Shown: piece by piece, positions 3,893 through 24,967 of the stretch
Layout: every line of letters begins with the position of its first letter
Numbering within the stretch: position 1 is the first letter of the stretch
Source of the DNA: a virus
IMG/VR virus record: IMGVR_UViG_3300035070_001070
Location: 1-43,918 of that record
Direction: 5' to 3' (one strand)
DNA length: 43,918 nt
Program-made: the position numbers and the translations under genes
The notes under the pieces: model-generated
Told to the model about the DNA's origin: nothing
Databases searched by the model: none
What the model saw: the letters and a program-made list of their open reading frames with translations, nothing else

Positions 3893-4105
3893 GCATGTTG
3901 TTGTAAAATCGTTTTATTGCTTATCTGACCCCAAAGAAGGTGGACTTAAAAGATGTGAAAAACAATGTAAAGGTTGCGAAATGAGTAAAAATAATAAGCA
4001 ATAATATGTTTTACAACGCTAAGGGTATGGTGTCGGATTTGCTTTTCGCAAATATGCACTATAACCATTGTTAGGCTTAGTACGGAATTTAAAAATATAA
4101 ACAAA
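3893..4105 (+). other. Non-coding junction with a gene remnant and an attC-like hairpin
   Basis: A Cys-rich frame (3897-4004, no usual start codon) reads SFYCLSDPKEGGLKRCEKQC and continues KGCE..., and looks like the tail of a lost gene. Then 4011-4076 resembles an integron attC site. The end is GTTAGGC (4070-4076), a perfect GTTRRRY core box. A hairpin pairs ATTTGC (4037-4042) with GCAAAT (4048-4053), GTG with CAC, and GGgTAT with ATAaCC, with unpaired bases between. The left core (TTACAAC) is a poor match to RYYYAAC. The stretch from here to 5447 is visibly more A/T-rich than the exonuclease gene. Confidence 0.45.
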
Positions 4106-4285
4106 ATGAAAAAAGTAATAGTAAAAGATTTAAAAGGATTAGATAAAGAAACAATATCTAAAATAGAAACACCTATGGTTTATTTAGGTGAATATGAAGA
4201 ATCTGGTGATGTTTTTGCAGATTTAAGAAATAGCAAAGATGAACCTATTAGAATATTTCACGAAAGAATAGAAGATTATGACTAA
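4106..4285 (+). CDS. Hypothetical cassette protein, 59 aa
   Basis: I do not recognise this protein. It begins MKKVIVKDLKGLDKETISKI and ends in an acidic, possibly beta-hairpin segment (VYLGEYEESGDVFADLR). The gene lies just after the attC-like hairpin, with an A-rich leader (aaaaatataaacaaaATG). It overlaps the ABC-GNAT gene by 8 bases, so the two form one unit. The A/T-rich codon use (AAA, GAT, GAA, TTA) matches the following gene and not the exonuclease upstream. A small partner or regulator of the ATPase is the natural guess. Confidence 0.6.
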   Translation: MKKVIVKDLKGLDKETISKIETPMVYLGEYEESGDVFADLRNSKDEPIRIFHERIEDYD

Positions 4286-5417
4286 AATAAAACTAAAAAG
4301 TAGTATTAAAAATGATGACTACACAAAATATGTGTATGATGCTTTTGATATACAAAACAAAGAAGAAACAGAAGTAGAGGTGTCATTTAATTTAAGTGAA
4401 GCTAAAGACTTTGATTGGAATATAGGTGTTATTTATGGCAGTAGTGGGAGTGGTAAAACAACTATTCTAAAAATAATAGGTGAATTATCTAAAAGTAATT
4501 TCGATTACGAAAAACCATTAATAAGTAACTTTGATTGGTTAGAGCCTAAAGATGCAACATTATTACTAACAAGTATGGGTTTAAGTAGTGTACCAACTTG
4601 GTTAAGACCATTTCGCTTGTTAAGTAATGGTGAGCAATATAGAGCAGAGTTGGCTTATAAAGTAGGCAAAGCTAAAGACAATGAAGTTATTTTAGTTGAT
4701 GAGTATACAAGTGTTGTAGATAGAGATGTAGCTAAAGCAATGAGTTTTGCTTTACAGAAGTACATTAGAAAAACAAACAAACGTATAATTTTAGCAAGTT
4801 GTCATTATGATATAATGGAATGGTTAATGCCTGATTGGACTTGTTCACCACAAAAAGGAGGCGCACTCGAAAGAGGCGAATGGCTTCGGCAAGGCAGACC
4901 AAAAATCGAATTACAAGTTAGTAGAGTCGAGTCTAATACTTGGAACATCTTTAAAAAGCATCATTATCTAACAGAAGATGTAAATAAAAGTTGTAAGTTC
5001 TTTTTGTTTGAATGGAATAATAAACCAATCGGAATTGTAGCTGTGATTAATCAACCAAGAAAAGGTTGTCCTAATGGATTTGCAATAAGTAGGATAGTTG
5101 TATTACCTGATTTTCAAGGTATGGGGTTAGGCACTAAAATATGTGAATTTACTTCTTCATTGTTTGTAAATCAAGGGGGTAAAGTCTATATAAAAACAGT
5201 AAATCCTGCTTTAGGTTTGTATCACAATAAAAGTGAAAAATGGAGAGGAACTCTAAAAAACGGTAAAATAGGTAACACTAACGATGATAATGCTAAATCA
5301 AGGCTTTCAAGAATATCATACTGCCACGAATACATAGGCAAATGTATTAGCGGATATGAAGATTTATTGAAACCTATTAAAGAAATGAGAAAAGCTAATA
5401 GTTTAACGCTGTTTTAG
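4278..5417 (+). CDS. ABC-type ATPase fused to GNAT acetyltransferase (COG2401-like)
   Basis: The 379-residue protein has a soluble ABC ATPase followed by a GNAT domain. ATPase motifs are Walker A GSSGSGKTT (54-62), signature LLSNGEQ (114-120), Walker B EVILVDEY (136-143) and a switch His near 176 (ASCHYD). The C-terminal half starts TWNIFKKHHYL (221-231) and carries the acetyl-CoA loop VVLPDFQGMGLG (274-285). There is no transmembrane segment, so it is not a transporter. This architecture is known as 'ABC ATPase fused to acetyltransferase' in phages and plasmids. Its substrate is not established, and modification of nucleic acid or of a host protein is inference. It sits in an A/T-rich cassette with attC-like flanks, together with a 59-residue partner. 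Confidence 0.82.
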   Translation: MTKIKLKSSIKNDDYTKYVYDAFDIQNKEETEVEVSFNLSEAKDFDWNIGVIYGSSGSGKTTILKIIGELSKSNFDYEKPLISNFDWLEPKDATLLLTSMGLSSVPTWLRPFRLLSNGEQYRAELAYKVGKAKDNEVILVDEYTSVVDRDVAKAMSFALQKYIRKTNKRIILASCHYDIMEWLMPDWTCSPQKGGALERGEWLRQGRPKIELQVSRVESNTWNIFKKHHYLTEDVNKSCKFFLFEWNNKPIGIVAVINQPRKGCPNGFAISRIVVLPDFQGMGLGTKICEFTSSLFVNQGGKVYIKTVNPALGLYHNKSEKWRGTLKNGKIGNTNDDNAKSRLSRISYCHEYIGKCISGYEDLLKPIKEMRKANSLTLF

Positions 5418-5423
5418 TATTAA

Positions 5424-5447
5424 GCCTAACAACCGAATAAAGAATAC
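5424..5447 (+). repeat. attC-like GCCTAAC box plus 21-bp direct repeat, copy 2
   Basis: GCCTAAC (5424-5430) is a perfect RYYYAAC box and the exact complement of the GTTAGGC that opens the cassette at 4070-4076. This is what the two ends of one circular integron cassette would give. Bases 5427-5447 repeat 400-420 with one mismatch. The rest of a full attC (hairpin and second GTTRRRY) is not visible before the next ATG at 5463, so the site is at best partial. Confidence 0.5.
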
Positions 5448-9720: not shown

Positions 9721-10296
9721 ATGATAGAATTCAGAGACTACCAGAAACGAATAATAACGGAGGGTGCTAAAAATTTATCACTTAAAAGTTTGCCTAATGA
9801 GATTTGGAAACCTATAAAAGATTACGAAGACTTGTACCATATTTCTAGTTATGGCAGAGTAAAGTCATTAAATAAAGAGCAATTATTATCAGCCTCTGGA
9901 GGTGTAAGAATTAGAAAAGAGAAAATACTATCTCAACAAAAGGATGATAAGGGGTATTTATCTTTAAAAGTTTGTAAAAATAATTGCTCTAAAAGGTTTA
10001 AAATACATAGATTAGTTGCTATCGCTTTTATTGAAAATCCATTAAACAAGAATCAAGTTAATCATATTGATGGGGTAAAGAGTAATAATGTAGTTTCTAA
10101 TTTAGAGTGGTGCACAAATTCAGAGAACCAAATTCATGCTTGTATTAAAGGCTTAAAGAAGACTAAGTTATCAAAAAAAGAAGTAATAAATATTAGAAAA
10201 GATGAAAGAAGTTTATTAGAAATAGGTAATGAATATGGAGTATCTTTTCAGACAATAAGCGAGATTAAGAATAGAAAAACTTGGAAGCATGTTTAA
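9721..10296 (+). CDS. NUMOD4-HNH homing endonuclease carrying a helicase N-terminal stub
   Basis: Residues 1-19 (MIEFRDYQKRIITEGAKNL) are not endonuclease sequence. They match the start of an SF2 helicase, and the next gene begins FKLRDYQNKIVDSL. A NUMOD4 motif follows (EIWKPIKDYEDLYHISSYGR, 27-46), then an HNH domain (HRLVAIAFIENP... VNHIDGVKSNNVVSNLEWCT, about 97-133). A C-terminal helix-turn-helix (SLLEIGNEYGVSFQTISEIK) resembles NUMOD-type DNA binding. Such enzymes cut recipient genomes and spread with flanking genes. The stub uses the higher-GC codons of the upstream gene, while the body is A/T-rich like the helicase after it. Confidence 0.85.
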   Translation: MIEFRDYQKRIITEGAKNLSLKSLPNEIWKPIKDYEDLYHISSYGRVKSLNKEQLLSASGGVRIRKEKILSQQKDDKGYLSLKVCKNNCSKRFKIHRLVAIAFIENPLNKNQVNHIDGVKSNNVVSNLEWCTNSENQIHACIKGLKKTKLSKKEVINIRKDERSLLEIGNEYGVSFQTISEIKNRKTWKHV

Positions 10297-23790: not shown

Positions 23791-24560
23791 TATTCTCCAT
23801 CTATATTAAAGTCACTCCAATAATCAGCACCGCCTCCTACACCTCCCACAACTTGATTCCCTTGATTTATTTGGTCATTAGTTACGGTAGTCGGAGGAAC
23901 TATACCATCGGGGTACCACGTATTCATTGTGTTCGGTTGGTTATAAATTGGAGTATTTGGAGCCATACTAGTATTAGCACCGCCTCCTTGACCTCCACCA
24001 AAGCCTTCATAAAGACCCATAGCATCTAACCCTGTACTTGCGGCTCCAGCTAGTCCTTGGAAACCTTGAGCATTTAATTGCATAGCTCTCACTTCCGCTT
24101 GTGCAGCAGCCTTTTGTGCTCCTTGAACTGTGCCTAGTTCTACACCGACTTGTTGATTTCTAATTCTATCGTTTTCAGCAGCGACTCTCATGTCTCTATT
24201 CATTAAATCTCTTTGCATTTGTAAACGTTGAGCTTCATTTGCATCAGCTCCAGCAGCCATAGCTTTTCCTACACCGCCTATTAAGGCTCTATCACCAGAT
24301 TCTCTTAATGCTTGAATATTTTGTGATTGAACCGCAGCATTTCCTTGCATTGCTAATTCATAAGGCTCTAAAGGTACTTGGACGCTTTCTGCGTAATTAG
24401 TTTGAAGAAGATTCTCCATCTCAATCATTGCTTGAGCTGCTTCTCTGTCAGCTTCATCCTTTAAGTCTTTTTGTTTCTTTGCGTCTGAGAAAGATTTTAC
24501 AGCACCAACAACTTGTACTGCTGCACCTATTCCTCCAATTATCGCTGCTCCTACTCCCAT
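23790..24560 (-). CDS. Small internal/ejection virion protein, 256 aa
   Basis: It starts with a Gly/Ala-rich hydrophobic helix (MGVGAAIIGGIGAAVQVVGA), then an amphipathic Ala, Gln and Glu-rich helical body up to about residue 190. It ends in a Gly/Asn-rich tail (GFGGGQGGGANTS). This is the layout of T7 gp14-like and P22 gp7-like proteins, which line or cross the envelope during DNA ejection. It overlaps the upstream gene by 10 bases and the downstream gene by one (TAATG). The family assignment rests on layout, not a specific motif. Confidence 0.62.
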   Translation of the reverse strand: MGVGAAIIGGIGAAVQVVGAVKSFSDAKKQKDLKDEADREAAQAMIEMENLLQTNYAESVQVPLEPYELAMQGNAAVQSQNIQALRESGDRALIGGVGKAMAAGADANEAQRLQMQRDLMNRDMRVAAENDRIRNQQVGVELGTVQGAQKAAAQAEVRAMQLNAQGFQGLAGAASTGLDAMGLYEGFGGGQGGGANTSMAPNTPIYNQPNTMNTWYPDGIVPPTTVTNDQINQGNQVVGGVGGGADYWSDFNIDGE

Positions 24561-24967
24561 ATTTTTTTAATCATTTCGTTATACCTTTCGGTATTATATT
24601 TATAACCTTGAGAAATACTCACGTCTAACAAGGACTTACTGTTTCCTTTCAGAAGCGAATATACGTATTTTTTGTCTAATTTTCTAGCTAATGAGGTAAT
24701 TGTTTCATCAAGAAGTGATATACAATACCTTCTTTTTTCTTTGTCTTTGTAGTTTATATTCGACACAATGAACTCAATCCATACCAATGCAGAGTTTGTA
24801 TTGAACATGAATCCCGCACAGACAGGGGTTTCCCCGTCATATACTATGAATCCACCCGTACCATTTTCGGGTAACATGTCTTTAGGTGGAGGTGTTTTTC
24901 TCCATTCCCTCCACCATCCACATAATATCTCGTCATAGTCATTTTCATTCAATTTTCTTACCGTCAT
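24551..24967 (-). CDS. GNAT-like acetyltransferase in the tail module, 138 aa
   Basis: The pattern MTVRKLNENDYDEILCGWWR, then TPPPKDMLPENGTGGFIVYD, then ETPVCAGFMF...ALVWIEFIVSN, has the strand-helix layout of the small GNAT-like proteins often found between tail and internal-protein genes in phages. The acetyl-CoA loop (here YKDKEKRRYCISLL) lacks a clear Q/R-x-x-G-x-G, so activity is uncertain. It overlaps both neighbours, so it is part of the virion operon. Modification of a virion or host protein is possible. Confidence 0.6.
   Translation of the reverse strand: MTVRKLNENDYDEILCGWWREWRKTPPPKDMLPENGTGGFIVYDGETPVCAGFMFNTNSALVWIEFIVSNINYKDKEKRRYCISLLDETITSLARKLDKKYVYSLLKGNSKSLLDVSISQGYKYNTERYNEMIKKIWE

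Follow-up and report, generated by a model that had tools for sequence, protein, structure and literature searches.

A probable complete integron-type cassette in a phage genome, and attC arrays beside a recombinase in large uncultured phages that suggest a phage-owned integron system

The DNA stretch analyzed here, hereafter referred to as the window, corresponds to an IMG/VR record of 43.9 kb, from a virus of Bacteroidota. It contains an insert that is very probably one complete integron-type cassette, moved by site-specific recombination, with a cargo predicted to acylate DNA bases.

Organization of the insert

The sequence-only reading from which this analysis started had described two overlapping A/T-rich genes, bordered by a pair of complementary boxes, and this layout is confirmed. 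The two ORFs, of 59 aa (4106–4285) and 379 aa (4278–5417), overlap by 8 nt, and the insert stretch has a G+C content of ∼31%, compared to 38–40% on both flanks. The box GTTAGGC is located at 4070–4076, and its exact complement GCCTAAC at 5424–5430; the latter occurs only once on the plus strand of the window, and shuffling of the 45-nt gap gives it a chance probability of 0.0004. The features identified are as follows:

4017–5429, minus strand (read 5429 to 4017): predicted whole integron-type cassette of 1,413 bp, counted from one G|TT crossover point to the other, and delimited by the complementarity of its R' and R'' ends
4010–4076, plus strand: attC-type site, with R'' TTACAAC (4011–4017), an L''/L' stem and R' GTTAGGC (4070–4076), detected with the R2 covariance model
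4077–4105, plus strand: cassette leader of the TTAGTACGG...AAAATG type, between the attC and the first ORF, common to many phage elements after the R' box
4106–4285, plus strand: p59, the 59-aa partner protein, with homologues in contigs L086, L087 and L088
4278–5417, plus strand: 379-aa ABC-ATPase/GNAT fusion, PHROG 11143, with PHROG and Pfam matches and intact motifs
5424–5430, plus strand: right half-site GCCTAAC, predicted cassette end and insertion junction, complementary to 4070–4076 and with the attI-side junction geometry seen in integrase-linked arrays
5431–5447, plus strand: putative attI-like phage docking-site flank, AACCGAATAAAGAATAC, with a second copy of the junction at 388–420
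3893–4010, plus strand: possible remnant of an older neighboring cassette (weak), with a start-less open frame ending at 4004 and GTTGTAA at 3900–3906

The two genes read away from their attC, which sits 5' of them, with ∼30 nt between R' and the first gene start, and 6 nt between the last gene end and the half-site. On the right side of the insert, the R2 model gives no attC match, and to this extent the earlier remark that a full attC is lacking there holds; its conclusion that the case is partial does not, as the half-site appears to be the junction itself. A truncated attC was considered for this position, and dropped once the attI-side geometry had been seen in integrase-linked arrays. 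On sequence grounds, the 7-mer at 5424–5430 is thus read as the insertion junction of a cassette that is complete with its own attC at 4010–4076.

The start-less frame on the left stops 6 nt ahead of the R'' box TTACAAC, to which GTTGTAA (3900–3906) is complementary; GTTGTAA is present in nine copies in the window, and this pairing may be due to chance. The second copy of the right junction sequence, at 388–420, is 82% identical over 33 nt. A short gene (22–390) just before it ends with TAGTATTGGCGGTAAC, as other cassette ends do, and may be another cassette whose start falls outside the record.

The left border as a member of an attC family

A 17-nt border pattern, TTGTTAGSMTTAGTACG, was found in 64 viral stretches, while its 18-nt version has just five matches in 257 Gb of bacterial genomes, two of which (L154 and L156) have no hairpin in front. 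Most of the viral matches form part of a hairpin, on its 3' arm, and the two arms pair in spite of their unlike sequences; these hairpins begin with TAACG and end with TGTTAGC, with an ORF start just downstream.

The covariance model R2 was trained on 26 other elements, with the window left out, and stops at GTTA, so that the leader plays no part in the scores. In the training set, the stem is paired in 94% of the cells and double changes number 51, compared to 17 in shuffled alignments; the covariation is 0.422, compared to 0.141 ± 0.019 after shuffling. Applied to the window, R2 scores positions 4010–4073 at 45.9 bits (E about 7e-8, the E-values of this model being rough), which bears out the earlier claim that the left box sits on an attC-like hairpin; of the covariance-model check that had been proposed for both sides, it is the left one that scores. 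In addition, positions 4015–4095 are 86.6% identical to the attC and leader in 80-kb and 175-kb phage contigs. Folded as a lone single strand, the left hairpin is no better than its shuffles (z −0.59), single-strand DNA folding of both sites is uninformative, and an Rfam search gave no match. The case for the left attC is therefore comparative: it possesses the R'' and R' boxes, and a stem that is divergent in sequence but conserved in structure.

R2 also recovers both attC sites of the Polaribacter phage P12002L (54.1 and 37.5 bits), placing the window in the same family as the phage attC sites and CALINs described by Qi et al. (2023; PMC9892861). Of these two sites, P12002L_attC2 recombines with attI1 via IntI1 in E. 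coli at frequencies like those of bacterial attC, while no recombination product was verified for attC1 (PMC9892861). In the methyltransferase cassette of P12002L, the gene begins at a full attC, with GTTAGGCAC, and ends at the half-site GTGCCTAAC; this arrangement, and a DNA-modification cargo, are the likeness to the window. An element had to contain two or more attC sites to be included by Qi et al. (2023; PMC9892861), who reported no phage recombinase for these sites, whereas the cassette of the window is a single one, and its phage has no integrase.

Complementarity across cassettes

Integron crossover takes place at G|TTRRRY. A cassette is therefore expected to begin with a box that complements the R'' box at its own end, and not the partner box in the hairpin. 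In the window, the R' box on the gene-start side and the R'' box on the gene-end side are complementary at 7/7 positions, including all three variable ones, while the R'' and R' boxes of the hairpin itself match at none of the three variable bases beyond the core. This is the box pair that a single circular cassette had been suggested to leave, and related arrays show the same. Homology of the ABC-GNAT gene region also stops at the right box, at 5423 in comparison to L004 and at 5429 in comparison to L003. Taken together, the complementary ends and the limit of homology suggest that 5429–4017 represents one whole cassette.

In the arrays found around a phage recombinase (see below), the start and end boxes of 36/64 adjacent pairs match at each of the three variable bases, for a permutation mean of 7.3 and a maximum of 17 in 10,000. 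Within single hairpins of the same arrays, the boxes match in 9/122 cases, with 11.7 expected. Integrase-less phages show the same pattern, with matches in 21/27 across the cassette and 3/51 within the hairpin. The box pairs come partly from related loci, and are not all independent. Among the cassettes with matched ends (n = 57), the gene starts at the attC side in 55, at a median of 38 nt from R', and ends 18 nt before the half-site.

The cargo

The 379-aa protein matches PHROG 11143 (449 bits) and the Pfam family Acetyltransf_1 (35.6 bits, above the cut-off). It is a fusion of an ABC ATPase to a GNAT domain, in which the Walker A, signature, Walker B-Glu, H-loop and GNAT motif A are invariant in 25 homologues. 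The family includes a relative from the Tenacibaculum phage pT24, for which an uncharacterized acyl modification of a DNA base has been predicted (Iyer et al., 2021; PMC7824862). Compared to this pT24 system, the window version is mobile as a cassette, and is paired with p59. In pT24 (L083) the homologous gene, at 4001–5173, is split by a stop into two annotated ORFs, which could reflect a sequencing error, recoding or gene decay.

p59 is without a match in Pfam or among the PHROGs, and it was found neither in bacterial genomes nor in isolated phages. Its homologues in viral contigs are 86–88% identical in L086 and L087, and 67% in L088. In L086, p59 precedes a Mom gene (PF25680, E 5e-38) with a similar short overlap, and every other Mom relative found (L263–L266) likewise has a p59 homologue (52%) directly upstream, again with a similar overlap. 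A broken p59 start is retained before the ABC-GNAT gene of L004, but p59 is missing from most ABC-GNAT relatives, and is therefore not essential to the enzyme. The window protein itself has no match to the Pfam Mom family (PF25680), and an hhalign comparison of the ABC-GNAT profile to one Mom sequence was not significant. The partner gene is thus common to ABC-GNAT and Mom, while the window enzyme itself is not a Mom.

In the com-mom pair of phage Mu, a gene of ∼60 aa likewise overlaps the beginning of the gene for a GNAT-fold DNA modifier. The p59 arrangement resembles it in being paired with true Mom genes; however p59 has no cysteines, and is thus not a Com-like zinc finger.

A counter-defense or nucleic-acid-modifying role had been proposed for the two genes, and this can be narrowed to acylation of a DNA base, because the p59-type gene also precedes Mom-type DNA modifiers. 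Protection of the phage DNA against restriction by such an acylation is most likely the function of the cassette. It is possible, if rather improbable, that the enzyme targets RNA or protein instead, for example tRNA, as TmcA does, or the host RNA polymerase, as phage Rac does. A Foldseek search returned mainly ABC-transporter ATPases, along with TmcA (2zpa). TmcA is a tRNA cytidine acetyltransferase in which an ATPase is followed by a GNAT domain, and acetylates a nucleobase amine. Its structural score is nevertheless low (TM 0.28), its ATPase is of a different family from that of the window enzyme, and its substrate is RNA. Phage Rac GNATs that acetylate RNA polymerase have also been described (PMC7824862). 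Against such targets stand the association of p59 with Mom DNA modifiers, and the DNA methyltransferases carried by sister cassettes, one of which comes after an attC and leader that share 87% identity with those of the window. DNA therefore remains the favored substrate.

A second GNAT-like ORF (138 aa) was noted by eye in the late gene block of the window, at 24551–24967 on the minus strand.

Recombinase-linked arrays in phages

As the earlier reading stated, no integrase is encoded in the window record. Just 2 of the 46 records searched have a tyrosine recombinase; in one of these, G014, it adjoins the attC array, and is a 269-aa, Xer-like protein. I identified relatives of this recombinase in viral contigs, and the surrounding loci contain 164 attC matches in 1.04 Mb, while control phage loci totaling 0.77 Mb contain 5. 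In the loci with 8 kb available on both sides, attC elements lie upstream of the recombinase in 90 cases, and downstream in 2. An attI-like motif, NNNTAACTATTATATATA, is present at most 130 bp from the recombinase gene in 67/75 loci, for 0.4 expected. In 42/47 loci, a sequence complementary to the last detected R' box reappears in the interval from the last detected hairpin to the recombinase gene, and falls on the attI-like motif in about 20 of those; elsewhere, it mostly lies on what look like further hairpin starts missed by the model. The recombinase gene reads away from the array, the order being array, attI, recombinase. These arrays (L161–L240) thus combine a linked tyrosine recombinase with an attI-like site next to its gene.

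In this organization, the phage arrays are similar to integrons (IntI, attI and attC): they share the G|TT cassette signature, attC hairpins with divergent arms, and an attI-like site beside a recombinase gene that diverges from the array. They differ in that the cassette genes point toward attI, in their large-phage carriers, and in the recombinase, which is Xer-like and does not possess the I2 helix insertion in the catalytic domain that is characteristic of IntI. It aligns to IntI4 in two pieces, with ∼32 residues where IntI4 has 80, aligns end to end with XerA-like proteins, and scores 157.7 bits with TIGR02249, below the cut-off of 265. In IntI, the I2 insertion recognizes the extrahelical bases of attC (PMC7790495).

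A T4-type portal or terminase gene is present on at least 16 of the 46 array or recombinase contigs, and a 32-kb contig (G057) unites the array, attI-like site, recombinase, terminase and portal. Among isolated phages, no close relative of the array-linked recombinase was found, but only temperate integrases at 37–39%. On balance, and on evidence that comes from metagenomic contigs, large Bacteroidota phages appear to own complete integrons, in which a Xer-like recombinase without I2 would act on folded attC and an adjacent attI, and maintain arrays of inverted-gene cassettes. Many of these would be for DNA modification, and they may circulate as a virus-owned anti-restriction pool, including in integrase-less phages such as that of the window. 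Other cassettes of phage arrays, such as L209 (2743–3886), carry an RNA ligase and many unknown proteins of 50–150 aa.

The alternative that the cassette comes from a chromosomal integron of a Flavobacteriales host, and was merely picked up by the phage, is unlikely. R2 does detect attC arrays beside 366–385-aa integrases in Flavobacteriales chromosomes, with cross-cassette complementarity in 10/21 pairs, and the earlier suggestion of a host-supplied integrase stands to the extent that such arrays exist. However, the chromosomal array examined (L253) has the classical gene orientation, with the gene end at attC, and a recombinase placed differently, while phage cassettes, including that of the window, have their genes inverted. 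The exact border motif is viral in 64 stretches and bacterial in 5, p59 is absent from the bacterial genomes searched, and large phages have their own recombinase and attI-like site, all of which argues against a simply host-derived pool.

These chromosomal arrays (L253–L256), whose Xer-like recombinases have an extra N-terminal region, are possibly unrecognized Bacteroidota integrons. The one recombinase aligned is also without the I2 insertion. Integrons have rarely been found in Bacteroidetes by earlier tools (PMC9024848).

That the hairpins are static regulatory stem-loops (terminators or promoters, similar to the PeSL of T4-type phages), promoting homologous recombination between phages with no site-specific step, is very improbable: they are located between genes and often followed by a conserved leader, and the phage YqaJ exonuclease could drive homologous exchange, but this predicts covariation within the hairpin, whereas it is the boxes at the two cassette ends that co-vary, in arrays linked to a recombinase and attI-like sites.

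Proposed origin and implications

For a cassette moved by site-specific recombination, the following sequence of events can be proposed. Circular excision from an attC array probably freed the cassette, and its insertion would have taken place at a G|TT site, with the YqaJ exonuclease region on one side and the ribbon-helix-helix gene on the other. The position of attC 5' of the genes corresponds to the inverted orientation that is the rule in the phage attC family. Since the window record has no recombinase, the enzyme would have been supplied in trans, by a co-infecting phage or a host integron. Once expressed, the ABC-ATPase/GNAT fusion would acylate a base of the phage DNA, such that host restriction enzymes cannot cut it, with p59 serving as an accessory or translational coupler shared by ABC-GNAT and Mom-type modifiers.

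The predicted empty site, TTTTACAA^CAACCGAATAAAG, has no match in other viral contigs, and the collections hold no close relative of the window phage. Similarly, the YqaJ region has no close relative, and only two at about 51%. In L084, YqaJ is directly followed by another gene, with no insert between them.

Elsewhere in the window, an ORF at 9721–10296 starts with MIEFRDYQ, nearly copying the start (MFKLRDYQ) of the helicase-like ORF that comes next, at 10289; it has the look of an insertion of the homing-endonuclease type, with duplication of the helicase start.

Integrons are usually regarded as devices of bacteria that phages carry on occasion. The attC arrays found beside their own recombinase in large uncultured phages suggest a phage-owned integron system. 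If true, a phage-run integron lacking the helix that recognition of single-stranded attC is believed to require would bear directly on the origins of integrons, and would provide a mechanism for the rapid swapping of anti-restriction genes among phages. In addition, p59 connects the uncharacterized ABC-GNAT enzyme to Mom, and its substrate thereby becomes testable.
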